From IMG/VR virus record IMGVR_UViG_3300020448_000030, positions 1 through 27,878 of that record: 27,878 nucleotides of DNA; one strand, given 5' to 3'. Made by a program: the position numbers and the translations under genes. This document shows positions 3,372 through 27,872 of this stretch, in pieces. The DNA comes from a virus. Numbering within the stretch: position 1 is the first letter of the stretch; each line of letters opens with the position of its first letter. The notes beneath the pieces are model-generated. The model searched no databases. It saw only the letters and a program-made list of their open reading frames with translations, and had not been told where the DNA came from.

Positions 3372-3378
3372 ATAAATA
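3372..3378 (+). promoter_or_regulatory. T4-like late promoter box (ATAAATA)
   Basis: The heptamer ATAAATA, in the context CATAAATACT, sits two bases after the TAG of the preceding peptide and 21 bases before the ATG at 3399. It matches the -10-like TATAAATA box read by the T4-type late sigma factor gp55. It is well placed to drive the baseplate genes that follow. A matching box lies at the end of the giant gene (27869-27875). Confidence 0.65.
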
Positions 3379-3398
3379 CTTTTAGGATCGAGGTAACT

Positions 3399-3512
3399 AT
3401 GGTTGTAAAAGTCGATAAGAGTGAAGAGTTTGTCAAAAGTGGCAAAGTCTTAATTAGTGAGTATCCTAGTAAAAAAGAAAAGGATGTAAAACCACTTAGC
3501 AAATGGCGTTAA
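3399..3512 (+). CDS. Small hypothetical protein at the head of the baseplate operon
   Basis: A 37-residue charged peptide (MVVKVDKSEEFVKSGKVLIS, then EYPSKKEKDVKPLSKWR). The ATG at 3399 has a good ribosome binding site, GAGGT at 3390-3394, and it is the first gene after the late box. The 3' end overlaps gp25 by ten bases in a different frame, so it may serve partly to deliver ribosomes to the gp25 start, which has no strong site of its own. No domain is recognised. Confidence 0.6.
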   Translation: MVVKVDKSEEFVKSGKVLISEYPSKKEKDVKPLSKWR

Positions 3513-3922
3513 AATCAATTAGCGGAAAGGATGTAAACCTGAGTCGTTCTTTTAAAGATATAAAAGTAGACTTTGCAAGGAATCCTTTTACTCAAGATGT
3601 ATCTCAAGTATCTAATGACAATGCTATTAAGCAGTCATTAAAGAATCTTGTGATGACTCAACCTGGTGAAAAGTTATTTCAACCCCAAATAGGTTCGGGA
3701 GTTAGGCAATTATTGTTTGAACCTATGGATGGTTTTACAGCAGATGCTATTAGAGATGACATTCTTTCTACTGTTGGACAACATGAACCCAGAATTACAA
3801 TAAACAATCTTGCTGTAAGAGAGCAGTATGATGCAAATCAATTCAATGTCACTATAGATTATAATATTGTGGGTCAACCACTTGTGGAAACAGTGTCATT
3901 TGTACTTAAGAGACCTGAATAA
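3503..3922 (+). CDS. 25: Baseplate wedge subunit gp25
   Basis: A 139-residue member of the GPW/gp25 family. In contractile tails gp25 sits in the baseplate wedge at the tube-sheath interface and helps start sheath assembly. Visible family marks are the N-terminal DFARNPFTQDV, the helix NAIKQSLKNLVMTQPGEKLF (about 40-59), IGSGVRQLLFEPMD, and the EPR triplet (residues 95-97) that bonds to the wedge core in known structures, followed by strands ITINNLAV and NQFNVTIDYNIV. Length is typical (T4 gp25 is 132 residues). It is preceded by the small gene at 3399 and overlaps gp6 by one base (TAATG). gp25 next to gp6 corresponds to the W-J gene pair of P2-type phages. Confidence 0.95.
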   Translation: MALKSISGKDVNLSRSFKDIKVDFARNPFTQDVSQVSNDNAIKQSLKNLVMTQPGEKLFQPQIGSGVRQLLFEPMDGFTADAIRDDILSTVGQHEPRITINNLAVREQYDANQFNVTIDYNIVGQPLVETVSFVLKRPE

Positions 3923-5910: not shown

Positions 5911-5916
5911 AAGGTT
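5904..5916 (+). promoter_or_regulatory. Small hairpin covering the ribosome binding site of the giant gene
   Basis: AACCT (5904-5908) and AGGTT (5912-5916) can pair around a three-base loop. The AAAAGG ribosome binding site (5909-5914) of the gene at 5919 lies in the loop and 3' arm. The hairpin overlaps the gp6 stop codon (5908-5910), so ribosomes finishing gp6 would open it and couple translation. The stem is weak and the regulatory role is inference. Confidence 0.35.
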
Positions 5917-5918
5917 AA

Positions 5919-6113
5919 ATGACAAGTATCAATAAAGTCTCATCGGCAATTGTTGCCCAGACTCCTCAATTTGTAGAGTCTGACTACCCTCTGTTTAACA
6001 GATTTCTTGAGTATTACTATCAATCTCAAGAGAAGACTGGTCTTGGTCAGAATATTCTAAACAATTTCCTTGGATACCTTGATATTGATAGATTAGATGT
6101 TGGTATATTAGAT
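5919..6113 (+). other. Giant protein: N-terminal helical docking segment
   Basis: Residues 1-65 read as helices: VSSAIVAQTPQFVESDYPLF, then FNRFLEYYYQSQEKTG and NILNNFLGYLDIDRLDV. The '..Q.P.FV..DYPLF..FLE.YY' pattern opens many marine T4-like phage proteins encoded just after gp6. I take it as the part that docks to gp6 in the wedge; that role is inferred from gene position. Confidence 0.6.
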
Positions 6114-9100
6114 GGTAAGACAAAATTAGTAGAAGCAATTGATATTACTAGCGACACAATCGTTGTAGAATCAATTGACCAGTTTTTAGAAAAGTCTGGA
6201 TCTATTCTCATAGGTAATGAAGTTATCTACTATGAGAGTATAACCAGTTCTCCAAACATTGCTCTTTCACCAGGTATTTCATATGACCAGGTAAAATTAA
6301 AGTGGGTAAATCTTTTTAGTCCTATTAGTCTCTTCGATGGCACTACTACTCAGTTTAATTTAACATCTCAGGATAATCCAATTGCACCTCCATCCGCACA
6401 ACATTTAATTGTGTCTGTGTATGGCGAGGTATTGACCCCTGTGACCGACTACACAGTGTCTGGAACAACTATTACCTATGCAACTGCTCCTAGAACAAAG
6501 ATTCCTTCTGATGATGCTATAAACACCTATATTACATACCTAGATGGTTTTGTAGAAAATCAGATTGTTGCACTCGATAATATTTCTAACTCCTTTGGTG
6601 AAGGTAAGACACAATTTAGAATAACACGTAATGGTATAGCATATGAACCAATTGTAGACGAATATGTAATTGCAATATACGACAAAAAATTATTAATACC
6701 TAAAGTAGATTACTTTATAGATGGTGCAGACTTTCTATTTGCTACCGCACCTACAAACGGTAGATTCTTATCATTATATTCTATAGAAGCACCTGTACCT
6801 TCTTTTGGTAGTGGTGCGGAAGGTTTTGCACGAGTAAATGATACAGGTCAACTTACAAGTATCTCAACTAACGTAAATGGTAGTAATTATAGATTTGAAT
6901 ATCCTCCAAAAGTTTCTATTAACACAACTACTGGATCTGGTGGTGCTGCACAAGCATTAGTAAACGGTATTAAGACCGTGACTCTACTTAATGGTGGTAA
7001 AGGGTATAGTGATACAAACCCTCCTGTTGTTCAAATAGAATCTCCTACAAAAACAGGTTCTACACAAGCAACACTAAAAGCAACAGTAACTAATGGTTCT
7101 GTTACTGCTGTAGAATTAACTGGATCGGGTTCTGGATATACATTTACACCTAGAATCACTTTCCGACAACCTGGCGGTGCTACAGTTGCCACTCCGACCG
7201 TTTCTCACTATCATGGTGGATCTGGTGGATCAATCACAGGTGGTTTAACAATTACTAATGCAGGATTTGGATATACAACCCCTCCTGCAGTGTATGTTGA
7301 CGAACCAACTGGAAATAATCCAATCAGAGCATCTTTCCAAACAGTTCTTGCTGCAGACGGAACTATTGCATCTATTACTACAATTAACGCAGGGCAAGGT
7401 TATACATCTGTTCCAAGAGTAGCAATAGTAGATCCTGTTGGTGCACAAGTATTACAAACAGTAGTTGATGGAGACGGAAGAGTTATTCGTATTGATATAC
7501 TTGACGGAGGAAGCGGGTATGATGAAGTTCCTTCCGTCTATATCGTTGATAATAGAGTAGATGGTACAGGAGCATATGCAGGTGGTACAGGTGCTACCGC
7601 AACTGCTGCAATATTCAATGGTTCGATTACAGATATTAACGTAAGTGCGTTTGGTAGTGGATATTCTGCTGCAAATCCTCCTTCTGTTGTAATTCAAGCA
7701 CCTACAAGTGCTGAAGCATCTGCGGAAATAGGTTTAAATGAGGTCACAGGATTTAAAGTCAATCAATCAGGTAAAGGATATAATAAAGCACAGTTTGTAG
7801 GATGTGCACGTGCTGCATCTGGTATCGTAGAATACACGGAAGATGGTAATGCAGTATTTTCTAATGATACTACTGCTGCAGCTGCCACTGTTGATACTGA
7901 GGTAAAATGTCTTGATGCTTTATTTGTAAAACGTTTACTAGACAAGTATACACAACAGTTCTTACCTGATGTACCAGAACTAGACTATAAGAAGATTGAT
8001 GTTCGTACAGCAATCAAAACTATTAAGGATTTCTACTCCGCAAAAGGTACATCATTCAGTATTGCGTACCTATTCAAGTTATTGTATGGTGAGACAGTAA
8101 GTATATCTTATCCAAAAGACCAGATTATCAAACCATCTGCAGCAACATGGTCTATTGATACTATTTTAAGAGCAACTAAGGTCTCTGGACTTGCTACAGA
8201 CATTCAAGATGGTCTTATACAACAGGAGGCAGACATTGCGGATCCTAATGTAAGAGCTGCATCTGCGTTAGTTGAAAACTATATTTCAATCAAAACATCT
8301 ACAGTAGAGATATTTGAACTTGTTCTATCAGAGGAAACTATTACAGGAACATTTACCGTACCTTATAAAACAAAACTTGCCGAACCATTAAATCAAACTG
8401 ACTCAATCATTACGGTTGACTCTACTATTGGGTGGCCAGAAAGAAACGGTGAATTTATAATTGGTTCAGGCACTACTACAGAATTAGTACAATATAAGGA
8501 AAAATCACTCAACCAGTTTATTGAGTGTACTCGTTCTGTAAACGGAGTTGTAGAGGACTGGGATTCTGCTACTGAAGTTGCATCAAACTTCCAAGTAAAG
8601 ATTAATAAAGACACACCACAAGAAGTTGTGATGAATGTTGTTGGTATTGTTGATGCACAACAAACAACTTTAACTGATACAGGTTCTTACTACTTACAAG
8701 GTGATAAACTAACAGTTTCTAAGTTAGGTGGTACTGGAACATCTCCTTTACTTACAACTTGGTTATACAACGTTAAAAAACTGATTACTGTTAGTGGTAT
8801 TACATTTGGCGGTGTAAATAATCAATCCGCAACTGTCACTTGTGCTAATAATCATGGTTTGTTGGTTGGAGATCAGGTCACAGTCTATGGTGCAAACCCA
8901 ATCATCTATAATGGAACATTTACTGTCACATCGAGAGATAGTGAGACAGTATTCCAGTATGCACTACCACAACCTGCATCAATCGTACCTCAGGGTAATA
9001 TTCTTGTATCTGTTGACTTAAACAAAGGTAAGTCTGATACCAGTACAATTTTAAATGCAGTAGGACCTTATACTACTAATATACAAAACTCATTCTTTAA

Positions 9101-12100
9101 TGATAATCATACTTATGTTGCATCAACTGGTATACCAAACTATTCTATAGGTCCTTTTCCTGGTTCTGCTCTTTTACCTGGCAACCAACGTAAATTAAAC
9201 AGATTCCCTGCAGTACCCACTACAATATCTACAAAGAATACTATTTCTTCAGGTCCTATTGGTACATGGGTGAATGGTGTTTCTGTATGGTCATATAAGT
9301 CAACACAAAGCAAAACTTTTGGTGCTATTACAAGTATTGCGATTACTAATGCAGGACAAGGTTATGATGCTGCATCTCCTCCTGTTATCACCATTTCTGG
9401 TGGTGGAGGAACTGGTGCTACTGCTAATGTTATAGTTAATGGTTCTATCTCTGAAATTACAGTCACAGCAGGTGGTTCTGGTTATACATCTTCTCCTCTA
9501 GTATCAATCGTTGGTGGAGGCGGTTCAGGAGCAGCAGCGACCGCTATTATTACTAAAGGTGCTGTAAGCCGTATTTTGATTAACTCTGGTGGTACAGGTT
9601 ATACTTCTCAACCTTCAATTACTATTGTTGGTGGAGGTGGAACGGGTGCTGCAGGTACTGCGAGTGTTAGAGGTCCTATTAATACTGTTAATATTACCAA
9701 TGGTGGTAGTTCTTATACCAGTGCTCCTACTGTAAGTCTATCCTCTGGTTCAGGAGCAGTGGCACAGCCGATTGTACAGAATGGTAGAATTATTTCTATT
9801 GCTATCATCTCTGCAGGTTCAGGATATACCACAGCACCTGAAGTTAGTATTCAAGGTGTTGGATTTGGTGCTGTTGCTCGTGCTACTATAGACACTGATG
9901 GTGAAAACGCAGGTAGAGTGACAAGTATTACTATTGTCAACCGTGGTATTGGATACGTTCAAGGAACTACTCTTATTAATATGACATCTGTTGGTCAAGA
10001 TGCAATCTTTACACCTTCAGTATTTAAGTGGACATATAACTTACAAGCAACATCTATATTAGACGCTGCTAAAGGTGGAGTATTTGAAGGATATAATAAT
10101 CAGTATGGTGGTGAATACGCTCACATATCAAATCCACAAAAATTACGTTTCATTCTTGGTGATAATTTACAAGAGGCAGTTGCAGGAACTATTACTGAAC
10201 AAGAAACACAACTACAACACTCTCCTATTATTGGTTGGGCATTTGATGGAAACCCAATCTACGGTCCTTATGGATATACTGATCCAACTGACCAGTCATC
10301 TGAAATTACAAGATTAAGAACTTCATATAGAGTTCAACCTGCTCTTGTACAAACTTCAAATAATCCATCTCCTGTAAGAACTGCAGGTCCTCTACTATCT
10401 TCTGAAGCAGCAGGTAATTTTGTTGAAGATTATGAGTATGTTTTCAACCTTGGTGATCTAGATCAGTACAATGGTAGATTTTGTAAAACACCTGACTACC
10501 CTACAGGTAGATACTGCTATTTTGTCACTATAGATGCTACAGAGGCAGGTAATCCAGAATTCCCTTATGTCTTAGGTCCTAGTTTTAACTCTGTTGTTGA
10601 TACATGGAACTTAAGTACAAGTGCAGTACAGCAAAATATTCCAACTGGTGTTGTAAGATATCGTGACCCATATGAGAATGTTGATATTGATGTTGAAAGA
10701 GCACCTAATGCTTCCACAAATGCTCTAACAACTGAAGATGGTGCAATACTACTCTTTGATCCAGAAGATACTAATAGAGATGGACAGATAGACGCTGAAG
10801 AATCAGCAGAAATTAATCTAGGTCAATTATTTGAAGAATCACCTCTACAACTCTTCGATTACTTCCCTAAAGTTAGATTTGACTCAAAAGTTGATATTGA
10901 GGTAGAAACAACTAATAAATTTGAAGATGCTAACGTCACTGGATTTACTATTGAAAACGCAGGTCAATCATATCAGGTAAATGATAGATTAGTTTTTGAT
11001 AATACAAACACTGGTGGTGATGGTGCTTCTGCACGTGTATCTCGTATTAAAGGAGAAACAGTTTCAGCATATACTTTTGAGAGTATAAGTGGTAATAACT
11101 TTGGTGTTCTAACAACTTCTAATCCTCATAACTTATCTGCAGGTGATAGTATATTTGTTGACTATACACCTGTAATGGACAATACAAATAAACAGTTTAC
11201 TGTTCGTCAATACAAGGGTATAGAAGAAATACAAATTACACAGACTGGTTCTGGATATAACACTGATATTCCTCCTACAATAATTATTGATAGCACTAGC
11301 GGTCAAGATGGTGAGTTGCAAGCAGTTGTATCAAGTGTAGGATCTATTGATACTGTTAATATTATTAATTCTGGTTCTGGATACTCATCTAACCCAAGAG
11401 TTATACTTTCACATCCACAGATCTTTAAAAAAGCAGATTACTATCTATCATTCATTAATAATAACAATTATGTCAAAGTCAATGATACCTTCGTTAACGA
11501 TAACAAGGAAGTATTCATCTGTGGTAAAACAAAAGACTCAAGTGGCAACGTCGTTGCATTCGTTTCTAAATTATCAGCAACTGGTGTTAAAGAATGGTCA
11601 AAAACTCTTGAACTCTCTGGTGGATTAAATTACGCAGAGTTTAACTCAGTATATGTTGATGGTAATGATGTTTGGGTTGTAGGTATCAATAAACCTAATA
11701 GTAGCATTCTTGATGCATATAATCCTGATGTAATCCTTTGTAAGTATACACAGGCAGCAAACGGTCTAAGTGCCACACTTTCTTTCCAAAAAGCATATGC
11801 AGGTATCTCTGGTGGTACTCGTGCTGATCATATTACAATAATCAAAAAGTATAGTGATACTCGTTATATAATCGGTGGTTATACAAATACAAACTCTGCA
11901 AATCCTGATGATGCCTTTATAGCATCTATTGATACTACAGGTAATTTTGCTATTAAGAGAAAATTTGCTTCTGCAAATAAATCTGAAAGAATTACTGATA
12001 TTATCTGTAATTATAACCAAACAACAGGTTCACAAGATGTTTACTTCTGTATGGAGACTGCATCTACAGTCAATGCTTTAGATGTTGATGTTGCTGTTGG

Positions 12101-21100: not shown

Positions 21101-24100
21101 CTATGTACCTTCAACAGGTATCATGACATTGACTATTGCAGGTCATAACTTCTCTAACGGTGAGAAAATTAAGATTGCAGATAACTCATTAAGATTTACT
21201 TGTGCACAAGATAATAATGCTACAAATCATGACTATCCAAGATCTACTGATGCTGTAAGTAATAAGTGGATTCCTATTTCTAATGTCACAACAGACACAT
21301 TTGATGTACAGGTTTTAGATAGTATTCCTTCCACTAACGTCACTGCTCATACATTTGTAAGTGCAACATCTGGTGGTGTAAGTAAAGCAAACTCAACTAT
21401 TAAGTTAGCACCTAATTCTATCAAGATGACATGTGATCAGGATAGTGATGCTACAGTTCATCTATATCCAAGATCAGAGCAAGATAGACATACTGCTACA
21501 ACTGGAACAACTTACAATCCTGTAACTGGTGTAATGACAGTCACAACTGCAGCTGCACATGGATTGAGAACTGGTACACCAATAATGTTCCAAGATTTAT
21601 CTCTTACATTTACATGTGGCGAAGATAATAATGCAACTAATCATCCATATCCAAGATCTACAGACTATGCAAGTAATAGATGGTTATTTGTAGCATCTGT
21701 TCCAACTACAACTACATTTACTGTTGTTGTTCTAGATAAGATTCCTTCTACAAATACAACAACTCATACATTCGTATCTGCTATTAAGGGTGGAATTATA
21801 GAGGGTGATCCTTTAGTTGCTCAGGCAGTTCCTATTGATGCTGTTACAGGTTCAACTATCACAATTAATACTCTTGATGGTTATACACCTTCCAACACAA
21901 CTACTCACGTTGTGACTGGATTTGCAAATCATCAGTACACACCTTCTGGTGCAACTTATGATGCAGCAACTGGTGTCATGGAATTGACATTTGCAACTAC
22001 TAACTTTACTCCAACCAATGCAACATATAATCCTACCACAGGTGATATGGTATTGACCATTGGATCTCATACTTTGAGTGTTGGTGATACAGTTAGAATC
22101 GCACCTAATTCTTTAGTATTCACATGTACATTAGACAGCAACGTTGCTCAGAAGTCATATCCAAGAGCAAGTAGCAATGACTATCCATACAATTATGATC
22201 TAACAATCACTAATGAAACTGCAACTACAATTACAGTCAATGTAAATGGTGATGGTACACCAATTTCAGATACTTCTGCACATACATTTGTATCTGCAGC
22301 AACTAACGCTGTTCAGTATGGACACCAAATTAAAGAACATGAAAAGATTAAATTAGCAGACGGTGCAGTCACATTTAATTGCACAATGGATGGTAATAGT
22401 TCTAATAAAGCATATCCTCGTGCTACTGATCCTATCAGTGGTAAGTGGATGCAAGTATTTAATGTTGACTACAATAAACTAAGTATCAACGTTGGTAAAT
22501 CTCCATTAAGGAAGTTCACACCTACACATGCTGAATATAATCCTACAACAGGATTCATGACACTTACAATAGGTCGTCATAATTTAAGAAGAGGAACTGC
22601 AGTTAAAATTGCAACAAACTCAATAACATTCAGATGTGCACAAGATGATTATGCTACAGATCATTCTTACCCTCGTACTACAGACCCTAACTATAACACA
22701 GCAGTCAATATAACTGATGTCACTGATGACACAATCACAGTTCAAACATTAGCAAGCACTCCTTCTACAAATACATCTAATCATATATTTGTTTCTGCCA
22801 CTGCTGACGCAATCACAACTGGTGGAAATTATTCACACACATTTGTATCTGCAACAAGTAATGGAATCACAAGAGCACTTCTTCAGACAGGCGGTAATTA
22901 TACACATAAGTTTGCATCTGGACTTGCTAATGGTGTATCTACAGGTGGTAATTACACACATACGTTCGTCTCTGCTACAAGCAATGGAATCGATGTTGCA
23001 GGAGATTCTGTAATTATTTCAGATAACTCTATTACATTTACATGTACTAAAGATGGTAATGCTACAACTCATACATATCCAAGATCCACTGACCCTGCAT
23101 CTGCACAAGTTCTACCATTAACAGCACATGATTCAAATACATTTACAATAAATGTTGGAGTATCTGCTGCTGAAGATCAGTATACTCATACATGGACTGC
23201 ATCTGCAACAAACGCTGTCACCAAAGTATTCTATTCATTATCAGATTGTTCTGATGTTATTACTACTCAAAATAACTTAGTCACAATATTAACAGATACA
23301 TTAAACAATGCTATACTAGCATCTCCTACAGATCATCTAGCTGGAGTGACTTCTGTATCTCCTGCTGCTGAATTTATTGGTGGTAGAGTAAATGGATTTA
23401 AGGAAGTACCATTCCCAGTATCATATCATGATGGCACAAATGATATAATTTACACAAATCAAATTGATATAGATGGACAGTATAGATTTAGAGACGCTGC
23501 ATATCTAGTTCGACAAAACGCTAGTGTTATCGTTGATAAGGCAACTTATGATATGCTACAACGTTATCCTGATCTTACATTAGATTTACCAGGAAATAAT
23601 AATGGTTTATCTGATGCAGGAACATTACAGAAGAAGACTGATCTAACAACAATAGTTGAAGCAATTGCTGATGATCTTGAAAATGGTGGTAATGCAAAAA
23701 TTGTAGAAACAGCAAACTTCTATCTTGGAAATACTAATGAAATAAGGCGTGTTCGTTTACAAGTTGTTCAGTCAATATATGCTCATGATCGTCTTGCAGT
23801 TTACATTAAAGAAGCAATTACAGGAGACTTAACTTATGACAATACAAATGATATTATTACAGGTGATTGGGATATTACTGGCAATAGTGTTTCTAATTAC
23901 TTTGATGGTGTTAAGACTGAGGTTGACACTCTTATCTCAACGATAAATGATATGATTGCACCTACCGATAATGATTTTAATATCGGTGGAGATAGATTAT
24001 ATTTCAACAGACAATATATTGCAGAAGAAGCAACTGGTTTAACATCATCAGAATTTAACTATACTCTTAATGGTGTATCTTACAACGCATACAGTTATCC

Positions 24101-27100
24101 TGGTAGTGGTAGAACTGAGATAGTAATTCAAGATAATTTAAAAGATATTATACTTGCTATAGTATCTGACTTACAAACTGGCGGTCAAAATAGCATAATA
24201 ACTGCTATGGAAACATATCTGAATGCTAGTTTACAAATTCAAACTATAGAAGAAGAATTACTTCCATTTATATTTGCTATAGAACAAGTTGGAGTTATTG
24301 GTGAGCATGCACTTAATAATATACTTCAAGATTTCAATAGTGGATTTACTCTACCAACTGGATATGCTGCACAAAAAACTGATGAGACTGCAATTAGAGA
24401 TACAGAAACACCAACTACTATTTCTACAGTAATTACAAGATTTAGAGAGTTAATTAAGATTGCAGTTAACTTCTTATCACCTGCCAAACTAGCAGGTAGA
24501 AGTGCTGCTAAACATATTCTTTACAACTACAACTATTATAAAGAAGAGATTACTAATCAGGTTAACTCACAGTTTGGTACTGGTCAGTGGACATACGATC
24601 AATTCCTTACAGATGTCACCGATGATATGGTGCATGATATTATTGCAACTGATCTTACAGATAAGACAACTGCATACGAAATTACATTAACAAGTAATAT
24701 TGGAAACTATACAGTTGGTGAGGTAATACACTCAAGCAATGGTGCATATGCAAAAGTATTAGAATGGAATGAAGATACAACATTCTTAGTTGTTGCTCCA
24801 TTTGTAGGAACACAATGGGCAAATGGTAATACTATTGTTGGTAGAACATCTAAGGCAGTAGGTGTGGTAAATGCAGTTGGTTCTGGATATGACTGGTATA
24901 ATAAACCAACAAATATACAAACTATTGTACATGCTAGAACTTTAACATCTAATATTACTGGTCAGATTGCAGGTGCAAACTTATTCAGTAATCCAGAGGC
25001 AATAGCAAGTGATTGGACTGCAACTGAAGCAACCATTACAAATAACTCAATCGCTGCTCCTGATCTTACAATTACTTCTGAAAAAATTGTACCAAGCACT
25101 AATACTGCACTTCATACACTTAACAGAGATTTCAGTCTAACTGCGTTTGAAACTTTTGACTCTGGTGTAGTTAAATTTGACACTACTAACGAGACATTTG
25201 ATACTGGTTCAATTTCTGCAGATGCAAATCAACAGTTTACATTCTCAGCGTTTATCAAGGCAGGTGGATATACATCAGTTCGTTTCCAAATGTCACTCGA
25301 TGAAGGAACCTCTGCTGTACAGAGAATATTCTTTGATCTTAACTTAAGTACAGGAACTATTGGTTCTGTATTTACACCTCAGGGTGGTATGACTAATGAT
25401 GCTGCAGGAGTAGTTCCTTTAGGTAATGGTTGGTATAGAGCATTTATTACAACTACATTCTCCTTTGGTTTCGCATCATTACAGAATAAAATTATTATTA
25501 ATAATGCAACTGGTTCTCAGAACTATGCAGGTAATGGTACAGATGGTATTTACGTTTGGGGTGTTAAACTTACTAAGAGTGTACTTGATCCTTATCAGTC
25601 TGGTGATGGTACAGTATTCTACTCTGATAACGAATACAACATTAAGCAATATGCGTTGAATACACTTCAGACATATATGCAAGCAGCACTTGATAATTCA
25701 CTTACAGAACCTTCACCTAATGCAGGATTCTACAAGTATTACAATTCTTCTGATGCTGCAAACTATACTACAAAATCAATGAATAGAATTATAAGATCTA
25801 ACATTGATATTATTAGAAATCAGATTAAGACAGGAACTTACTATACACAAATTACATCTCAGAATGGTATCTCTGTTCCTACTAAACTATATGGAACAAG
25901 ATCTATACCAGTTGCTCTTGGCGGTGGATTGAACAATGCAGACTATGCGTATGGTTTATCAAGTAATGTATATGGTGAACTTGAATCTATTTCAGAAAAT
26001 ACAGGTAAAATTGTTCAGGTATATCAAAGATTTAGAATTGATGGTGATATAACAGACGGTCCTTATACTATGAACGAGACTGTACAAAAACAGGGTAATG
26101 CTTCTATTACTGGTGTTGTTTACGGATTCTTTGAAGATGCAAACTATAAGTATCTTGATATTAAGGTGACTGCAGGTCCTTGGGCAATTACTGATAATGT
26201 TGTTGGTTCATCTAACTCTACAACTGCTCAGATAAGTGCAATCGAAAGTCGTATTCATATAATTGATTTACAAGGTGATTTCACAGATAACATTCCATTT
26301 AAAGGTTATACATCTGGAAATACTGCACAACCTGCAGGAACATTCTTAAAGAATGAAGCTGCTGTGACAGATAATACTGGTGGTACATTGACTGTAGATA
26401 CTGCAACTTTGAATGGATCGTTTGAAACTAATTCTGTTGTTTATCCTGAGTCATCTAGACAGTATCTTGATGTTATAAAGTATGATGGATTGGAACTTAA
26501 AGTTGGTGCTAAGATTGCATCTACTGGAAATATAAGATTTGGTATTAGTATTATATCCAGTCTTGCTACATTCCAAGTTGGTAATAGACTTTATAAGATT
26601 GCCAATGGTACTCAAGATTTGAATACTTACGCAATAATCACTGGTGTAGATATTGCAAATAACTTTATCTACGCACAAGAGTTCCAAGGAACATTAACAA
26701 ATGGTGATCAAGTTGGAGATTATGGAGTAGGAAGTTTCCCACAAGGTTATGCAAATATTACAACTAAGGTGGTCACTGCAGGTTCTGCTTCTGCTACTGT
26801 TCAAGATGTCAAAACTGTTGGTACTCTGAAGAGAATATATTTAAGTAGTGTTGCAGGAACATTTGATGTTAACGATGCTATTAAGAGTATTGATAATTAT
26901 AAAGCAGCAATTTCTGCTAAAGGTGATCTTAAGGCACGTGTCAAGAGATCATTCAAAGGATTTGATGGTGTACAAACAACCTTTAATTTATCTCAGAATA
27001 ATGGTACAACATATCTACCAGATCCTGCAGGACATCTACTAATATTCATCAATGGTATTCTACAACCACCAGGTGCAACTAACGCATACACAGCGTTTTC

Positions 27101-27872
27101 TAATCAGATTCAGTTTACTGAAGCACCTGATTTAGGAGCATCATTCACTGGATTCTATGTTGGTAAACTTAGACAGTTAGATGACATATCATTTGAGTTT
27201 GATTCATTACGTCAGTCATTTAACTTAAAACGTAATGAAGTATTCTACTCATTGACATTGACCGATGGTGTACAGTCATCGTCAATTAGACCAGAGAACA
27301 ATATCATCTGTTCATTGAACGGTGTTATACAGGAACCTGGTATTGGTTTTGAGATTGTTGGTTCTAGAATTATATTCTCAGAAATACCTCGTGTAGGATC
27401 TACATTTGTTGCATTCTCATATGTTGGTTCTGAAGCGGACGTAGACGCTGCTGAGATTGTACCTCCTGTAGAACCAGGTGATGATATTAGAATACAGGGT
27501 GAGACTGAAGATAGAACAGTTGCTGTTATTGAATCTTCTAACTCACTAATTACATTTGATTATCTTGGATCTGTATTTGGTCAAGACGCAGTTGCGACTG
27601 CAGCATTGACAACTGGATTCATTAAGAGTGTACAGGTCACTGGTGGTGGTTCTGGATATACTACAAGACCAACTGTAAGAGTTGACTCTATATCTGGTTT
27701 TGAAGGTAATATTAGAGCACTGGTTGGTGTTGGTGGAGTGACCTTAAGTAATACAGGTACTGGATATCAAAATCCTGACATCGCAGTTGAAACTTCTGTT
27801 CCAGATGACTGGACTGCACCAGATTTAAGTCAATATGGTGAAGAAGTAGTTGACCCTGAGATAATCACATAA
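5919..27872 (+). CDS. Giant modular virion protein (7317 residues), probable wedge-anchored (gp7/gpI-position) adhesin arm
   Basis: One uninterrupted frame encodes a Gly/Ser/Thr/Asn-rich protein of roughly 0.75-0.8 MDa (estimate). The start at 5919 follows AAAAGG (5909-5914). Segments in order: helical docking segment 1-65; GxGY beta repeats about 295-635; second helical docking segment 665-755; YHYH domain about 1064-1560 split by more GxGY repeats; EF-hand loop 1617-1628; seven-bladed propeller 1835-2225; LamG-like domain about 2225-2453; conserved YGHQY (2968) and YYYQDFSY (3562) core blocks; second LamG about 4240-4445; helical modules; eleven C/YPR repeats about 4620-5770; more helices; jelly roll 6352-6567; two LNG modules and terminal GxGY repeats. 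It follows gp25 and gp6, where the third wedge protein is encoded. The docking and core blocks resemble large structural proteins of marine T4-like phages. Role as a baseplate-attached receptor-binding arm is inferred; no protease or signal peptide was seen. Confidence 0.85.
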   Translation: MTSINKVSSAIVAQTPQFVESDYPLFNRFLEYYYQSQEKTGLGQNILNNFLGYLDIDRLDVGILDGKTKLVEAIDITSDTIVVESIDQFLEKSGSILIGNEVIYYESITSSPNIALSPGISYDQVKLKWVNLFSPISLFDGTTTQFNLTSQDNPIAPPSAQHLIVSVYGEVLTPVTDYTVSGTTITYATAPRTKIPSDDAINTYITYLDGFVENQIVALDNISNSFGEGKTQFRITRNGIAYEPIVDEYVIAIYDKKLLIPKVDYFIDGADFLFATAPTNGRFLSLYSIEAPVPSFGSGAEGFARVNDTGQLTSISTNVNGSNYRFEYPPKVSINTTTGSGGAAQALVNGIKTVTLLNGGKGYSDTNPPVVQIESPTKTGSTQATLKATVTNGSVTAVELTGSGSGYTFTPRITFRQPGGATVATPTVSHYHGGSGGSITGGLTITNAGFGYTTPPAVYVDEPTGNNPIRASFQTVLAADGTIASITTINAGQGYTSVPRVAIVDPVGAQVLQTVVDGDGRVIRIDILDGGSGYDEVPSVYIVDNRVDGTGAYAGGTGATATAAIFNGSITDINVSAFGSGYSAANPPSVVIQAPTSAEASAEIGLNEVTGFKVNQSGKGYNKAQFVGCARAASGIVEYTEDGNAVFSNDTTAAAATVDTEVKCLDALFVKRLLDKYTQQFLPDVPELDYKKIDVRTAIKTIKDFYSAKGTSFSIAYLFKLLYGETVSISYPKDQIIKPSAATWSIDTILRATKVSGLATDIQDGLIQQEADIADPNVRAASALVENYISIKTSTVEIFELVLSEETITGTFTVPYKTKLAEPLNQTDSIITVDSTIGWPERNGEFIIGSGTTTELVQYKEKSLNQFIECTRSVNGVVEDWDSATEVASNFQVKINKDTPQEVVMNVVGIVDAQQTTLTDTGSYYLQGDKLTVSKLGGTGTSPLLTTWLYNVKKLITVSGITFGGVNNQSATVTCANNHGLLVGDQVTVYGANPIIYNGTFTVTSRDSETVFQYALPQPASIVPQGNILVSVDLNKGKSDTSTILNAVGPYTTNIQNSFFNDNHTYVASTGIPNYSIGPFPGSALLPGNQRKLNRFPAVPTTISTKNTISSGPIGTWVNGVSVWSYKSTQSKTFGAITSIAITNAGQGYDAASPPVITISGGGGTGATANVIVNGSISEITVTAGGSGYTSSPLVSIVGGGGSGAAATAIITKGAVSRILINSGGTGYTSQPSITIVGGGGTGAAGTASVRGPINTVNITNGGSSYTSAPTVSLSSGSGAVAQPIVQNGRIISIAIISAGSGYTTAPEVSIQGVGFGAVARATIDTDGENAGRVTSITIVNRGIGYVQGTTLINMTSVGQDAIFTPSVFKWTYNLQATSILDAAKGGVFEGYNNQYGGEYAHISNPQKLRFILGDNLQEAVAGTITEQETQLQHSPIIGWAFDGNPIYGPYGYTDPTDQSSEITRLRTSYRVQPALVQTSNNPSPVRTAGPLLSSEAAGNFVEDYEYVFNLGDLDQYNGRFCKTPDYPTGRYCYFVTIDATEAGNPEFPYVLGPSFNSVVDTWNLSTSAVQQNIPTGVVRYRDPYENVDIDVERAPNASTNALTTEDGAILLFDPEDTNRDGQIDAEESAEINLGQLFEESPLQLFDYFPKVRFDSKVDIEVETTNKFEDANVTGFTIENAGQSYQVNDRLVFDNTNTGGDGASARVSRIKGETVSAYTFESISGNNFGVLTTSNPHNLSAGDSIFVDYTPVMDNTNKQFTVRQYKGIEEIQITQTGSGYNTDIPPTIIIDSTSGQDGELQAVVSSVGSIDTVNIINSGSGYSSNPRVILSHPQIFKKADYYLSFINNNNYVKVNDTFVNDNKEVFICGKTKDSSGNVVAFVSKLSATGVKEWSKTLELSGGLNYAEFNSVYVDGNDVWVVGINKPNSSILDAYNPDVILCKYTQAANGLSATLSFQKAYAGISGGTRADHITIIKKYSDTRYIIGGYTNTNSANPDDAFIASIDTTGNFAIKRKFASANKSERITDIICNYNQTTGSQDVYFCMETASTVNALDVDVAVGKCQIGINAITVDWINTYANSLHSMIDTSIAIDEFNEIYINATCRQKANDTDRDSIWVGKIDSAGTLIWNYRYLTPGRDVTCAGKSAIDLFGDLNIAYTRDNNTNEYKTVDVLKIGYNGVIKNHTTTEFTADNIEGLQIHGLDVDTSGDVHTFGQTYWNRNEFVIPFTSSAVTDTTGHYTPTLTQTGDSLSYDASNGWAKILGAQTSAPTVWTNTNIKFAGSDLGQKLAGDWTLEFLIFKDATNSNVFSQPKETLIAIGDATVSTGGLHLFYDQSSAGPSGPLTMTITNSSTSINSAGSSLTSSQTNLYADNTWQAIAVTKSGDTFKAYVNGIEVLTGTISGTSLGAKDLYIGNIPGANGTLGQFRSNEQGQFHIDHLRLRNRAVTPTVPSDILALPTAGAYGLTYNWVDDAWFADHMSRYDYIEYAGFGIKSDRNADAARLGNQGKKPTTGITFTRTAVTPVIGSPLTINVNGYALGDAGYQSLDFDDSTTTMTEDTETLTHVQDIWSSRTATVPSPGSQKLKVTAVVKDRYYFKVTPTIKIDNVQALTVNQSFNFSVGSKLVLKNDSGQFVNSGYIIRKDDENNIVYLAVNNNAWSNDLNTGQLSTEQFNEQSNYGITGAIPNDINEISNYTFAEINNQTPGTFIINLDGFDLDGTVADIPATIALSAAGTGYPNTGDSVATTTTNGEASGLLVDYTASGGVIQSISIDSGGAAGSGYKVGDEVVVSGGNGDAKFTINSTTGNLDSFATFKPYADEDYSVRIDQVSGSSAYIVGSVVTIGSGAITWNSDYSQATISGLTGVLKITLVANLTKILQATAVANSDEVYVITSTSHYLDAGDMIYVDGNPTQTIGATSYDEYDGAFAVQTVVSPLEFTYKLKTAALTAPATSASAVSIFIKSPTLKMYYGHQYLFDLSHSSMAGGNLSFAKDNLYKLEYSFNSIERVGTPGVTGGGQPTPTVKLKVDRSIVTNISYYFDPSRTGTDSPVVPGSYLDVVDSPYNGTFEISSIAGATITKGADILKFPLANEPEGAATISQATYTTSSIKAVGAIGDIRIVNPGGFYTKLPIVSGITSSRQIERVQINAPGTEYAVGTYNGVSIGGDGEGGFVSITVADGTDAEGSTIPGQINNVVVTSPGKNYTTATIDINAIPGILGTGLTGSGAELVVVIPSAGTGASVFTKGANVGKIKKLKNNNFGYDYPHDYTLRPEISFPINAQLTSTSILDSITITDPGTGYSQAPAVVITGGGGSGAVAEATIKNGRLDVIIVKDPGAGYSSTPTVNLRSSFNYVINLDLGLLQFAFPHGIANGAEVTLNVVDTGDGADFPLSAGAVGRLNGSTTYYAISGTANSLEDDQLKLAITAANASLGDALSFSNAGTGRQQVLTESFGGSATANVITSTFLEGELVYQGDSLATATAQGFVSTNSGWQVGPRVLKIVDYTGDFAENQRITGVISKSSGIITDLKIARGVLEIGSITRTTGQFIDDVGKPSEIIQKIQDSYYYQDFSYAVKSSTSISEWKEILIKNVHPASFKVFGELNLNEYGFIPNKETFFSLTKSVELAQEAIVPNIQNFALVEPVYTAFNNTEVLFRQKRLTSSENILTSVVQRIDDISTLFDGERTSFPLQVNQTNIVANANQLMIVLNGVVQTPGTAFSIQQDSIVFVEPPQPPASVKYVNVTINLIQTVDLTFTNISGIFPNIGNTVVGTSSGARLTVTKVTGNTITGFITQGSFILPTAGGGGELCTVGATGFSANIATRTVDININNVTTGNFPATADITAGTVFTGGTSGAQLTITQIVGTTISGTVTLGNFQANEIITATLSGGAAFSGTTYTVTGGVASGGLFIFGEQVTNFDGDTAKVEQVNLQTGQETPLAQLRYTVGLSTTSIEVVAYRTDNTAADAVVPAGTFTAGKNYQFGSEIVLVSAITQGSNSTTLTVTRAQNGTTAVSHQEDVPVYGTDISVTNSLTLSKTAGTYQSTPGLFDIQLNDYIIAAQSGVVAQVTASSVYQDPTTNEFIGQVNISPGSSFFGLLFNRITSQTYPNVVLDNIANSSVNIVNYTDNNTPFNENFPANEQINNYVITYDNSSGALTEGEDIRNYKIEYGNSNGDFDSAEDAKIRKLTFTNQKGTGFFVAGQNIRIGSLSEGEGTKAEVVGYSQARKTVYLGKIGRCQYNGQDIHSIAFTGNAQISTGSFKFGGSSLLLDGTGDYVNVVSSSEFAWGTGAFTIEFWVNPGSAAISGTATLLDQRENATEVAARIYLEAAQIRYNVNGSDLVTSGATTLNNATWYHVAIVRSGSTTKIWLNGVEVGTGTDSSNFAAKPIRVGMDYNGANGFTGYIDELRVSNTNRYTSAFTSQTGIHQGDTNSKLLVHFDGTNGQTYTEDWSGFVTPAIGDEFNNDSILETSRTTGAPAGFVGRTHRYLNAADDILLNKELIKAEALYIMKQVFPAHTVKGGDSVQLARLEVLIQALADDLRNGSNSHIWTTSASYINRTTNPISIATGTIEGDVPQEVFATEIVEKISKFIINNVPWHIQDTSHSFTQIYDGTLKDSDYPSAVNFTPTGATYNPATGDMVLTSNSHGLLSPREITASNAGYTATTGVLTITSNSHDLQTGDRIKLKPNSITMTCTSDGNTVSQSYPRPDDPAGQGWMEVTRIDANNFSINVGKSPTVNYTVTDGTYDGETGFLTMDIGDNDLRTGWKYTPEGIAYNPSTGVMTITIANHGFYVGDRVMFGVNSLVFTCGQDSNATDHAYPRITDPYYNKWIAIGNVTTNTFTVNVGTSSNTTTHVFKYALPNSMVRSGETLRLSKDAVSFKCSQDNFRTIHSYPRTDDPGYNTSLPIWTNGTTFTASNANYNAATGEMVITSNAHGLTLTDEVRIELNSLTFACTKDGNKTTHSYPRATDPAAQRWLRIESKTDNTFTVNVGIGAVADQYVHTFVSALENGLTKRDNTITVNIGKSPTVNYQPQSGTYNATTGALEINIGSHSLPAPTTHTVTDANYVPSTGIMTLTIAGHNFSNGEKIKIADNSLRFTCAQDNNATNHDYPRSTDAVSNKWIPISNVTTDTFDVQVLDSIPSTNVTAHTFVSATSGGVSKANSTIKLAPNSIKMTCDQDSDATVHLYPRSEQDRHTATTGTTYNPVTGVMTVTTAAAHGLRTGTPIMFQDLSLTFTCGEDNNATNHPYPRSTDYASNRWLFVASVPTTTTFTVVVLDKIPSTNTTTHTFVSAIKGGIIEGDPLVAQAVPIDAVTGSTITINTLDGYTPSNTTTHVVTGFANHQYTPSGATYDAATGVMELTFATTNFTPTNATYNPTTGDMVLTIGSHTLSVGDTVRIAPNSLVFTCTLDSNVAQKSYPRASSNDYPYNYDLTITNETATTITVNVNGDGTPISDTSAHTFVSAATNAVQYGHQIKEHEKIKLADGAVTFNCTMDGNSSNKAYPRATDPISGKWMQVFNVDYNKLSINVGKSPLRKFTPTHAEYNPTTGFMTLTIGRHNLRRGTAVKIATNSITFRCAQDDYATDHSYPRTTDPNYNTAVNITDVTDDTITVQTLASTPSTNTSNHIFVSATADAITTGGNYSHTFVSATSNGITRALLQTGGNYTHKFASGLANGVSTGGNYTHTFVSATSNGIDVAGDSVIISDNSITFTCTKDGNATTHTYPRSTDPASAQVLPLTAHDSNTFTINVGVSAAEDQYTHTWTASATNAVTKVFYSLSDCSDVITTQNNLVTILTDTLNNAILASPTDHLAGVTSVSPAAEFIGGRVNGFKEVPFPVSYHDGTNDIIYTNQIDIDGQYRFRDAAYLVRQNASVIVDKATYDMLQRYPDLTLDLPGNNNGLSDAGTLQKKTDLTTIVEAIADDLENGGNAKIVETANFYLGNTNEIRRVRLQVVQSIYAHDRLAVYIKEAITGDLTYDNTNDIITGDWDITGNSVSNYFDGVKTEVDTLISTINDMIAPTDNDFNIGGDRLYFNRQYIAEEATGLTSSEFNYTLNGVSYNAYSYPGSGRTEIVIQDNLKDIILAIVSDLQTGGQNSIITAMETYLNASLQIQTIEEELLPFIFAIEQVGVIGEHALNNILQDFNSGFTLPTGYAAQKTDETAIRDTETPTTISTVITRFRELIKIAVNFLSPAKLAGRSAAKHILYNYNYYKEEITNQVNSQFGTGQWTYDQFLTDVTDDMVHDIIATDLTDKTTAYEITLTSNIGNYTVGEVIHSSNGAYAKVLEWNEDTTFLVVAPFVGTQWANGNTIVGRTSKAVGVVNAVGSGYDWYNKPTNIQTIVHARTLTSNITGQIAGANLFSNPEAIASDWTATEATITNNSIAAPDLTITSEKIVPSTNTALHTLNRDFSLTAFETFDSGVVKFDTTNETFDTGSISADANQQFTFSAFIKAGGYTSVRFQMSLDEGTSAVQRIFFDLNLSTGTIGSVFTPQGGMTNDAAGVVPLGNGWYRAFITTTFSFGFASLQNKIIINNATGSQNYAGNGTDGIYVWGVKLTKSVLDPYQSGDGTVFYSDNEYNIKQYALNTLQTYMQAALDNSLTEPSPNAGFYKYYNSSDAANYTTKSMNRIIRSNIDIIRNQIKTGTYYTQITSQNGISVPTKLYGTRSIPVALGGGLNNADYAYGLSSNVYGELESISENTGKIVQVYQRFRIDGDITDGPYTMNETVQKQGNASITGVVYGFFEDANYKYLDIKVTAGPWAITDNVVGSSNSTTAQISAIESRIHIIDLQGDFTDNIPFKGYTSGNTAQPAGTFLKNEAAVTDNTGGTLTVDTATLNGSFETNSVVYPESSRQYLDVIKYDGLELKVGAKIASTGNIRFGISIISSLATFQVGNRLYKIANGTQDLNTYAIITGVDIANNFIYAQEFQGTLTNGDQVGDYGVGSFPQGYANITTKVVTAGSASATVQDVKTVGTLKRIYLSSVAGTFDVNDAIKSIDNYKAAISAKGDLKARVKRSFKGFDGVQTTFNLSQNNGTTYLPDPAGHLLIFINGILQPPGATNAYTAFSNQIQFTEAPDLGASFTGFYVGKLRQLDDISFEFDSLRQSFNLKRNEVFYSLTLTDGVQSSSIRPENNIICSLNGVIQEPGIGFEIVGSRIIFSEIPRVGSTFVAFSYVGSEADVDAAEIVPPVEPGDDIRIQGETEDRTVAVIESSNSLITFDYLGSVFGQDAVATAALTTGFIKSVQVTGGGSGYTTRPTVRVDSISGFEGNIRALVGVGGVTLSNTGTGYQNPDIAVETSVPDDWTAPDLSQYGEEVVDPEIIT
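6330..6794 (+). repeat. Giant protein: LNG beta modules, copies 1 and 2
   Basis: Two adjacent units (6330-6548 and 6582-6794) share a plan: 'F.g..TqF.l', about 20 residues later a strand with 'l.VsVyGevLtP..dY.v.G', and then 'i.fatAP' before a 'Y' strand. Copy 1 starts LFDGTTTQFNL; copy 2 starts SFGEGKTQFRI. Three further copies lie near 16944, 26958 and 27189. Confidence 0.6.
6800..7806 (+). repeat. Giant protein: GxGY beta repeats, cluster A (about eight units)
   Basis: Units of about 38-50 residues follow 'I..i.i.n.GsGYt..P.V.i......a.A.a.v.nG'. The anchors are NGSNYRFEYPP, GGKGYSDTNPP, SGSGYTFTP, AGFGYTTPP, AGQGYTSVP, GGSGYDEVP, FGSGYSAANPP and SGKGYNKAQ. They lie between the two helical docking segments, as if inserted. 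A parallel beta-solenoid or a string of small beta domains is likely. Confidence 0.75.
7911..8175 (+). other. Giant protein: second helical docking segment
   Basis: Residues 665-753 read LDALFVKRLLDKYTQQFLPD, then VRTAIKTIKDFYSAKGTSF and IAYLFKLLYGETVSISYPKD. 'IK.FY.AKGT..S...LF..Ly.E...i.YPkd' is a strongly conserved block in the marine-phage structural proteins that follow gp6. It is usually close to the N-terminal helices; here some 600 residues separate them. Confidence 0.65.
9108..10600 (+). other. Giant protein: YHYH-type domain interrupted by beta repeats
   Basis: The first half (residues 1064-1127) has HTYVASTGIPNYSIGPFPG and GPIGTWVNGVSVWSYKS. The second half (about 1368-1560) has GGVFEGYNNQYGGEYAH, the block PIIGWAFDGNPIYGPYGY (1437-1454), and NGRFCKTPDYPTGRYCYFVT with FPYVLGP. 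These match the order of blocks in YHYH-domain proteins. The naming motif is degraded to EYAH. Between the halves lie six GxGY repeats (9318-10010). Confidence 0.7.
9318..10010 (+). repeat. Giant protein: GxGY beta repeats, cluster B (six units) inside the YHYH domain
   Basis: Units of 37-38 residues are very regular, with anchors AGQGYDAASPP, GGSGYTSSP, GGTGYTSQP, GGSSYTSAP, AGSGYTTAP and RGIGYVQG, and intervening GGGGTGA-type turns. At the DNA level the glycine turns repeat as GGTGGAGGNNGN runs, which suggests recent unit duplication. Confidence 0.8.
10767..10802 (+). other. Giant protein: EF-hand-type calcium-binding loop
   Basis: Residues 1617-1628 read DTNRDGQIDAEE. Positions 1, 3, 5, 6, 8, 9 and 12 of the canonical loop (D, N, D, G, I, D, E) are all satisfied. 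Only one loop is visible, as in dockerin- or single-loop calcium sites of extracellular proteins, so a structural calcium site is the likely role. Confidence 0.6.
10938..11410 (+). repeat. Giant protein: GxGY repeats, cluster C
   Basis: Three units, ENAGQSYQVNDRLVF, QTGSGYNTDIPPTIII and NSGSGYSSNPRVIL, flank a 'PHNLSAGDSIFVDY' strand module. The last unit leads directly into the propeller. Confidence 0.6.
11421..12593 (+). other. Giant protein: seven-bladed beta-propeller
   Basis: Seven evenly spaced blade starts occur at residues 1865 (VFICG), 1918 (VWVVG), 1982 (RYIIGG), 2040 (DVYFC), 2097 (EIYIN), 2153 (DLNIAY) and 2209 (DVHTFG), about 53-64 residues apart. Most are followed by a 'D..v.Ki...G...W...y' strand (for example KLSATGVKEWSKTL, KIDSAGTLIWNYRY). 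This is the pattern of SBBP/delta-60-type propellers. Confidence 0.65.
12591..13275 (+). other. Giant protein: LamG-like (concanavalin-type) domain 1
   Basis: Residues about 2225-2453 include DWTLEFLIFKD, LHLFYDQSS, WQAIAVTKSGDTFKAYVNGIEV, LYIGNIPGANGTLGQF and HIDHLRLRNRAVTP. 'W..iAvt..g...ka YVnG' followed by 'l.iG' and 'iD.lrl..ra' is the hallmark of LamG/pentraxin-like sugar-binding sandwiches. Confidence 0.7.
14811..15110 (+). other. Giant protein: conserved YGHQY core block
   Basis: From residue 2965 the text KMYYGHQYLFDLSHSSM, NLSFAKDNLYKLEYSF, SIERVGTPG, VKLKVDRSIVTNISYYFDPS and VVPGSYLDVVDSPYNGTFEI is a block I recall from large structural proteins of T4-like cyanophages. It supports the virus group; its function is unknown. 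Confidence 0.55.
15241..15960 (+). repeat. Giant protein: GxGY repeats, cluster D (diverged)
   Basis: Units are anchored by NPGGFYTKLP, APGTEYAVGTY, SPGKNYTTATI, DPGTGYSQAPAVVI and DPGAGYSSTPTVNL. The first three have lost the GxGY core; the last two, with a GGGGSGAVAEA turn between them, are close to cluster B. Confidence 0.65.
16584..16725 (+). other. Giant protein: conserved YYYQDFSY / HPASFKVFGE block
   Basis: The block has KIQDSYYYQDFSYAVKSS (Y3562 first of the three Tyr), then ISEWKEILIKNVHPASFKVFGEL (His 3589). It is among the most conserved parts of the marine-phage structural protein family as I remember it, and seems to close the wedge-associated core before the more variable outer modules. 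Confidence 0.6.
16944..17145 (+). repeat. Giant protein: LNG beta module, copy 3
   Basis: The unit has LFDGERTSFPLQ, NQLMIVLNGVVQTPGTAF and DSIVFVEPPQPPASVKYVNV. It has the same order of strands as the copies near the two ends of the protein, and it follows the HPASFKVFGE core block. Confidence 0.65.
18633..19254 (+). other. Giant protein: LamG-like domain 2
   Basis: The segment includes SLLLDGTGDYVNVVSS, GAFTIEFWVNPGS, WYHVAIVRSGSTTKIWLNGV, IRVGMDYNG and GYIDELRVSNTNRY, closing with LLVHFDGTNG. This is a textbook LamG-type jelly roll, clearer than the first copy, and a candidate glycan-binding module. Confidence 0.85.
19359..19575 (+). repeat. Giant protein: helical module, copy 1
   Basis: Two helices, NAADDILLNKELIKAEALYI and LARLEVLIQALADDLRNGSN, are separated by a short Gly-containing linker and followed by SHIWTTSASYI. 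The 'aa.li..N...i..ea', 'vl.AlayDL..Ggn' plan is frequent in marine phage structural proteins. Further copies lie at 23484, 23991 and 24495. Confidence 0.55.
19770..23220 (+). repeat. Giant protein: eleven C..D....H.YPR repeats
   Basis: Each unit has a strand 'YnPtTGvMtlTi..H.l..Gd.v.i..nSl.FtC..D.NaT.H.YPR.tDP' and later 'i.nVt..TftVnVg'. The invariant Cys falls at residues 4689, 4803, 4877, 4949, 5095, 5172, 5233, 5403, 5488, 5573 and 5709. Spacing varies from about 61 to 170 residues because some units carry extra strands. I know of no named domain for this repeat, though similar text occurs in uncultured marine phage proteins. Confidence 0.85.
22782..22995 (+). repeat. Giant protein: short GGNY-H-F tandem repeats inside the YPR array
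   Basis: Three near-identical units start at 22818 (TGGNYSHTFVSATSNGIT), 22887 (TGGNYTHKFASGLANGVS) and 22941 (TGGNYTHTFVSATSNGID), 23 and 18 residues apart, after a partial HIFVSATADAI. They look like a local slippage or duplication of the 'HTFVSAt..gi' strand that ends the larger repeats. Confidence 0.75.
23484..24665 (+). repeat. Giant protein: helical modules, copies 2-4
   Basis: Copy 2 (23484-23735) has DAAYLVRQNASVIVDKATYD and IVEAIADDLENGGNAKIVET. Copy 3 (23991-24225) has FNRQYIAEEATG and LKDIILAIVSDLQTGGQNSI. Copy 4 (24495-24665) has AAKHILYNYNYYKEEITNQV and DMVHDIIATDLTDK. They share the plan of the copy at 19359 and may form helical bundles that stiffen or oligomerise the arm. Confidence 0.5.
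24972..25620 (+). other. Giant protein: carbohydrate-binding-like jelly roll
   Basis: The segment begins NLFSNPEAIASDWTATEATI and continues with FTFSAFIKAGGYTSVRFQMS, FFDLNLSTGTIGSVF, VVPLGNGWYRAFIT and GIYVWGVKLTKS. 'N....S..f...W', 'S.y.KAg', 'FdLstGtv', 'GNGWYR', 'iyiWGaqle' is the common plan of a jelly-roll module in phage tail fibres, thought to bind glycans. Confidence 0.7.
26958..27431 (+). repeat. Giant protein: LNG beta modules, copies 4 and 5
   Basis: Copy 4 (26958-27170) reads GFDGVQTTFNL, LLIFINGILQPPG, NQIQFTEAPDLGASFTGFYVG. Copy 5 (27189-27431) reads SFEFDSLRQSFNL, NIICSLNGVIQEPGIGFEI, SRIIFSEIPRVGSTFVAFSYVG. Together with copies 1-2 they place a pair of these modules near each end of the protein. 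Confidence 0.7.
27618..27790 (+). repeat. Giant protein: terminal GxGY repeats, cluster E
   Basis: Two units, VTGGGSGYTTRPTVRV and LSNTGTGYQNPDIAV, precede a short acidic tail (SQYGEEVVDPEIIT). The C-terminus is thus built from the same repeat family as the N-terminal cluster. Confidence 0.65.

Follow-up and report, generated by a model that had tools for sequence, protein, structure and literature searches.

The window analysed here, the whole of a 27,878-bp virus record, contains a 7,317-codon open reading frame that, judged by sequence, is the gp7 gene of a P-SSM4-like (Ronodorvirus-type) cyanophage. In its product the gp7 wedge domain is very probably split by two inserts: the three pieces would reunite on the gp6 dimer, and the inserts, together with a C-terminal extension, would form a skirt that contacts the host. 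The pieces are separated by about 540 and about 2,640 residues, and about 3,680 residues follow piece 3. The features of the region are listed below, with residue numbers referring to gp7.

3503-3922, + strand: gp25, baseplate wedge, 139 aa (Pfam GPW_gp25, E 2e-15; 91% identity with P-SSM4 gp25)
3922-5910, + strand: gp6, baseplate wedge, 662 aa (Pfam Gp6-like_1st, E 5e-16; 96% identity with P-SSM4 gp6)
5919-27872, + strand: gp7, giant baseplate wedge protein, 7,317 aa, calculated mass 781 kDa; ATG to TAA, one stop
5934-6290, + strand: wedge piece 1 (N piece), residues 6-124; HMM match ahead of the core piece in five of six compact gp7s, not in T4
6291-7901, + strand: insert 1, residues 125-661, GxGY repeats; without counterpart in 5 of 16 cyanophage gp7s
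7902-8279, + strand: wedge piece 2, conserved core motif, residues 662-787; Pfam PF23786 on residues 678-736, HMM matches in six of six compact gp7s
8394-16313, + strand: insert 2, residues ~826-3465, about 2,640 aa; boundaries approximate, from tiles
10098-10541, + strand: YHYH domain, residues 1394-1541 (Pfam PF14240, E 2.9e-33), with the literal YHYH replaced by YCYF
12873-13259, + strand: LamG/concanavalin-like domain 1, residues 2319-2447 (Pfam Laminin_G_3, E 3.9e-8)
16314-16823, + strand: wedge piece 3, residues ~3466-3635, from tiles and from an HMM of residues 3531-3635 that matches six of six compact gp7s in order
18711-19139, + strand: LamG/concanavalin-like domain 2, residues 4265-4407 (Pfam Laminin_G_3, E 1.1e-20)
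19983-23084, + strand: eleven C..D...YPR repeats, residues ~4689-5722; repeat number varies among phages
25191-25577, + strand: GTA head-spike-fiber-like domain, residues 6425-6553 (NCBIfam NF048003, E 2.8e-16; PDB 6tb9)
25869-27869, + strand: conserved C-terminal block, residues 6651-7317, overlapping the tblastn query of residues 6701-7317 (313 records)

One continuous gp7 gene and its relatives

The ORF lies directly downstream of gp6, giving the gene order gp25-gp6-gp7 that is common to the window, P-SSM4 and P-SSM2; gp6 and gp7 are adjacent in T4 too. Because the gene stops 6 bases before the end of the record, its 3' neighbour is unseen in the window; the gene after gp7 in P-SSM4 is gp9. 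A tRNA search of the window found none. Upstream, a 184-aa ORF (2736-3290, + strand) matches the Pfam 2OG-Fe(II) oxygenase family (E 2.5e-7). Its P-SSM4 counterpart, equal in size and place, is annotated as denV, DNA endonuclease V, a name that is possibly wrong in that record.

The initial annotation described a single 7,317-codon frame with a normal stop, and the gene does run from ATG to TAA in one frame, with 334-944 stops in each of the five alternative frames across 5919-27872. The GC content of third codon positions is 0.12-0.20 per 1.5-kb block and that of positions 1 and 2 at least 0.39. The stops in the other frames and the low GC3 together place this frame far beyond chance.

A tblastn search with the first 500 residues matched 378 of 50,697 phage records, each of the 378 having a name that starts with Synechococcus, Cyanophage, Prochlorococcus or Marine, and one with the last 617 residues (6701-7317) matched 313. 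Among named matches the best is the gp7 of P-SSM4 (PSSM4_080, YP_214641.1; 7,312 aa), which is identical to the window protein at 6,906 of 7,311 aligned residues (94.5%), end to end, and bears out the proposed kinship with large proteins of T4-like cyanophages. Colinearity with P-SSM4 extends over 26 kb (window 1865-27878) at 92.7% nucleotide identity. P-SSM3 PRAG_00216 is also 7,312 aa long and is 90% identical over the full protein. Both relatives lie after gp6, carry eleven YPR repeats and have the wedge pieces at matching places; the window protein differs from P-SSM4 gp7 in being 5 residues longer and diverges most in the YPR block. Over the 7,311 codons aligned with P-SSM4, dN is 0.0315 and dS 0.2405 (dN/dS 0.13); across 11 blocks the ratio ranges from 0.043 to 0.236, with the maximum in a block within the YPR array. 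PHROG 701 ranks first or second in nine of nine slices of the protein, from profile position 2 to 6135 of 6136, and the P-SSM4 and P-SSM2 orthologues carry the name gp7 in their records. This kind of giant gene is thus already known from annotated cultured phages, and the window adds one member. The earlier remark that its combination of modules looks unusual was too strong, P-SSM4 and P-SSM3 sharing both the length class (7,312 aa) and the eleven YPR repeats.

Contiguity was followed in IMG/VR contigs that carry both the core and the C-terminus loci, of which at least 20 were paired by eye among the matches listed. In 18 of the 20 compared the frame is unbroken, though in one of these a contig edge cuts off the start; the remaining two are a contig with non-overlapping loci (L025 and L106) and one with a frameshift (L060). 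Ten relatives, each with one annotated CDS, were all open on translation. It is exceedingly improbable that the ORF is an assembly artefact of mis-joined repeats or fused neighbouring genes. Repeats do exist, the gene stops at the contig end, and a stop in frame follows the core motif in 2 of the 80 core loci among the matches listed (L055 and L060); however, the gene is colinear with that of cultured P-SSM4, the P-SSM3 gene is equally long, and the frame is continuous in those 18 contigs. The initial view of a real structural gene conserved at both ends was right. Among the records fetched, one (metaG-MbCM1) is annotated with the modules in separate genes, a reading that was rejected: its three annotated ORFs lie in one frame with in-frame stops between them and homology running through. 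A later wedge gene in metaG-MbCM1 is also in two ORFs.

The wedge domain in three pieces

Profile HMMs of the three pieces, built from marine relatives with T4-type rows left out, match the window protein at residues 6-124, 662-787 and 3531-3635. The same HMMs locate the pieces in SKML-39 (284 aa) at 11-37, 176-221 and 236-280; in IME-SM1 (503 aa) at 9-50, 81-132 and 368-444; in phiM9 (903 aa) at 266-326, 337-395 and 794-851; in Melnitz-3 (896 aa), a Methylophilales phage filed under Kyanoviridae, at 11-44, 161-243 and 604-677; and in phiM7 (1,006 aa) at 11-46, 65-145 and 931-987. In T4 gp7 (1,032 aa) they find pieces 2 and 3 only, at 729-758 and 863-889. All three pieces therefore occur in order in five of the six compact gp7s.

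The Pfam family PF23786 (Baseplate_wedge) matches residues 678-736 with 29.2 bits against a curated cut-off of 27 (profile positions 163-221), and its positions 235-280 pair with residues 3557-3598 at 14.2 bits, below the cut-off. These two segments are near neighbours within the 284-aa domain. PF23786 spans SKML-39 gp205 completely (1-284 of 284), so the split can be measured against a contiguous reference: the SKML-39 gp7 (Ackermannviridae) has all three wedge pieces, but in a contiguous protein of 284 residues where pieces 2 and 3 are 15 residues apart, compared with 2,744 in the window gp7. The docking core proposed in the initial annotation is supported by the PF23786 match; the division of the wedge domain into three pieces had been missed. 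We found no description of a split wedge domain in the literature searched, which comprised abstract beginnings and passages.

The three pieces occur in one order in all 16 cyanophage gp7s compared, the window included, and these proteins range from 1,942 to 8,573 aa (7,312 aa in P-SSM4 and P-SSM3). With gaps taken as start minus end, pieces 1 and 2 are 538 residues apart in the window and 525-541 across the window type (n=11), and 28-37 apart in S-SM2, S-CAM9, ACG-2014f, P-SSM2 and S-H34. The gap between pieces 2 and 3 is 15 in SKML-39, 105 in T4, 1,582 in S-H34, 2,112-2,181 in S-CAM9, S-SM2, ACG-2014f and P-SSM2, and 2,645-2,763 in the eleven window-type proteins. The stretch after piece 3 spans 27 to 4,935 residues across the sixteen. 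Other Kyanoviridae gp7s of PHROG 701 (Syn19, P-RSM4, S-SZBM1, P-RSM6, S-SM2, P-SSM2) thus share the ordered pieces and differ in length, in the number of YPR repeats (0-14 per protein) and in insert 1, which is missing in five. Length and YPR count show a rank correlation of 0.71 (p 0.03, n=9, computed after removing P-SSM3, P-SSM4 and the five that lack insert 1), which is weak since S-SZBM1 has no YPR repeat by pattern yet reaches 6,619 aa. The longest gp7 of the series, that of P-RSM6 (HQ634193.1 103907-129628, locus L012), has 8,573 aa in one frame. P-RSM6 is among the phages reported to be without long tail fiber genes in a passage of PMC9146016.

As a control, the whole protein was cut into 132 overlapping 110-aa tiles, each searched as a one-round profile. 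The minimal gp7 of SKML-39 was matched at iE<0.01 by 5 of the 132 tiles, all overlapping the three pieces, and T4 gp7 by just 2 of the 132, which fall on pieces 2 and 3. For each of the remaining four compact gp7s, 16-31 tiles gave a match, repeat tiles outside the pieces among them, which leaves just SKML-39 and T4 as clean controls. Rounds 2-3 of the core profile absorbed 22 T4-type sequences; we relied on round 1, on T4-free models and on the single-round tiles.

The relationship to T4 gp7 (NP_049765.1) is carried by the core motif, which aligns with T4 residues ~729-773 in hhalign (T4-type gp7; E 4.4e-9, probability 96%) and matches T4 gp7 at iE 9.3e-10 in the tiles; the round-1 core HMM without T4-type rows reaches iE 6.8e-11 for T4-type relatives. 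Piece 3 is weak against T4 alone (iE 4.6e-4 in the six-protein search; hhalign probability 13.8%, E 0.002) and strong against the Melnitz-3 intermediate (iE 9e-21). Piece 1 was not found in T4 gp7 by HMM or hhalign. The Pfam domains of T4 gp7 (helical, 643-689; V, 766-861; VI, 920-1012) had no match in window slices at E<=0.05, PF23786 had none to T4 or phiM9 gp7 at E<=0.01, and a PDB sequence search with the core piece ranked T4-type gp7 (E 0.85) below ribosomal proteins (E 0.09). T4 gp7 resembles the window protein in its place after gp6, in the core motif (729-758), perhaps, on a weak match, in an HPxxF motif (863-889), and in its domain V region, which is matched by the predicted model of a compact relative. 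Unlike the window protein, it has its pieces close together, and Pfam detects neither LamG nor YHYH nor a spike domain in it.

The bounds of insert 2, about residues 826 to 3465, come from two tiles: 716-825, which matches Melnitz-3 gp7 at 208-297, and 3466-3575, which matches it at 571-643. We modelled a Melnitz-type compact gp7 with AlphaFold2 from an alignment of 43 of the 80 loci listed. The model is poor overall (mean pLDDT 52.4), with the wedge pieces mostly below 50 and better values in the beta parts. Among 995 chains its best matches are 5hx2_A, 5iv5_BJ and 9f4a_A0 (Z 9.6, 9.3 and 9.3), taken as gp7 of T4 and of a KP1 variant from chain length and numbering; only 9f4a_AY carries the gp7 name outright in the search output. 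The next row is an unlike protein, T4 gp18, at Z 8.6, 1.0 below the best. The 86 aligned residues correspond to 5hx2_A 760-845 while spreading over 228-611 of the model, so the model side is interrupted. Given this pairing and the extent of T4 domain V (766-861), insert 2 probably interrupts the counterpart of domain V, and piece 3 is the probable end of that counterpart together with the HPxxF motif. Foldseek returned nothing at E<=0.001 for either this model or that of the C-terminal block. In IME-SM1 gp7 (L280), Pfam pairs residues 261-308 with domain I of the tail sheath protein Gp18, below threshold (E 3.4e-5). Together with the Z 8.6 of the Melnitz-type model to T4 gp18, this raises the possibility that the GxGY-rich inserts have a fold in common with sheath domain I.

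Modules of the inserts and the C-terminal extension

Most modules named in the initial annotation were recovered. Pfam places the YHYH domain and both LamG domains at residues 1394-1541, 2319-2447 and 4265-4407, the count of eleven YPR repeats is correct, and the proposed jelly roll finds support as the GTA head-spike-fiber domain (NF048003, 6tb9). The suggested propeller found no support: its region returned no hit either in Pfam (E<=0.05) or in a PDB sequence search (E<=1). A motif check of the window YHYH domain found the namesake histidines not present, and Y[C/A/S]YF stands in place of YHYH in 15 of 16 cyanophage gp7s, S-H34 being unmatched by the pattern. The S-RIM14 CDS AOO14285.1 (locus L010) also carries Y[C/A/S]YF. 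PMC7824862 cites AOO14285.1 to illustrate a predicted Zn-dependent hydrolase, in a passage that gives no position for the histidines.

A PDB sequence search with the YPR array returned only an antibody chain (E 0.76). In the PDB, the GTA spike domain matches the head spike Rcc01080 of 6tb9 at E 6.8e-12 and also, at E 9e-5, a tail fiber, and GTA_spike_fiber was the sole NCBIfam match above cut-off. The C-terminal block shows 83% mean column identity in a 48-sequence alignment; its AlphaFold2 model (the window plus 47 of the 80 loci listed) has a mean pLDDT of 48.2, and its best VIA match, at Z 7.8, is at the level of models without a clear match. Within it, a predicted beta domain at residues 6696-6778 (26004-26252) resembles 9f4a_A0 763-857 (Z 7.8, near noise), and the C-terminal extension may hold copies of domain V.

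A predicted role in the virion

Homologues of this protein have been found in virions. The 6,619-aa S-SZBM1_208 was detected by mass spectrometry in CsCl-purified virions (PMC9146016), where its table row gives 724.20, 6619, 71 and 13.5%; we read these as mass (kDa), length in residues, number of peptides and coverage, as the passage does not include the column heads. The S-SZBM1 gp7 gene was confirmed at 6,619 aa. Cluster T4-GC969, found in S-SM1 virions according to a passage of PMC3037559, is that of S-SSM5 and Syn19 gp7; P-SSM4 gp7 is filed as T4-GC397. A passage of PMC6300606 describes the heterotrimer of the T4 wedge: one gp7 and two gp6 chains, featuring a three-helix bundle and a trifurcation domain, with a resemblance to TssG and TssF of type VI secretion.

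By homology with T4 gp7, we infer that the three pieces assemble in space: they would fold together as the wedge subunit and dock on the gp6 dimer of each wedge. The inserts and the extension would then protrude from the wedge and form a skirt, rich in beta structure and in part like lectins and fibers, that touches the host surface. This predicted host-contact role is read from domain types, namely the two LamG domains and the GTA-spike-fiber domain, whose matches in the PDB are a head spike and a tail fiber. A changed number of YPR repeats would alter the reach or avidity of the skirt. The host-adaptation study of S-TIM4 (PMC6224464) was considered as support and rejected: the passage singles out ORF108 and ORF224 and does not name the gp7 orthologue (ORF_101/ORF101).

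That the inserts are instead passive, with the wedge part being gp7 and the rest a shell, spacers or a stabilising skirt while other fibers bind the host, seems to us rather unlikely. Both gaps are near constant in the ten other window-type phages (525-541 and 2,645-2,763), which suits a fixed structure, and the folds of LamG and YHYH are broad or unproven; on the other side, LamG 2 and the YPR array lie in the most variable zone of the protein (residues ~3900-5700), and the highest dN/dS relative to P-SSM4 (0.236) falls within that array. Cleavage of the one chain into several virion proteins during assembly is a further reading. Nothing speaks for it directly, and the protein size and the 13.5% figure for S-SZBM1, if it is coverage, leave room for it; but the wedge pieces flank insert 2, so that a cut there would part one domain, and we hold cleavage to be improbable.

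Still less probable, in our view, is that the ORF is an unrelated structural or adhesin protein because cyanomyophages lack gp7 and VrlC substitutes for it. A passage of PMC7029224 has T4 Gp7 absent from pelagimyophages and cyanomyophages and apparently replaced by VrlC, the Pfam domains of T4's own gp7 have no match in window slices, and many records use names such as 'hypothetical protein' or 'virion structural protein'. Yet three wedge pieces occur in order with a clean tile control, Baseplate_wedge exceeds its Pfam cut-off, VrlC is a separate downstream gene in P-SSM4, and gp7 is the name given to the gene in P-SSM4 and P-SSM2. On the ordered piece HMMs and the tile control, the statement in PMC7029224 is probably wrong for cyanomyophages.

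The split wedge domain with a host-contact skirt, which we favour, leads to a more tentative proposal. T4 uses separate short-fiber and adapter proteins for host contact, and the part of its baseplate that includes gp7 helps trigger sheath contraction. It is possible, if doubtful, that Kyanoviridae moved much of the host-contact apparatus into gp7, in six copies of ~780 kDa (one per wedge, by analogy with T4) that would form a skirt of several megadaltons. Such a skirt would replace the separate T4 short-fiber and adapter proteins and tie host contact directly to this part of the baseplate, which helps trigger sheath contraction.

The split wedge domain, if true, would account for the description of cyanomyophages as lacking gp7, and it gives residue numbers that are testable in a cryo-EM map. 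The series from 284 to 8,573 aa would mean that one domain of a conserved injection machine accepts very large inserts.
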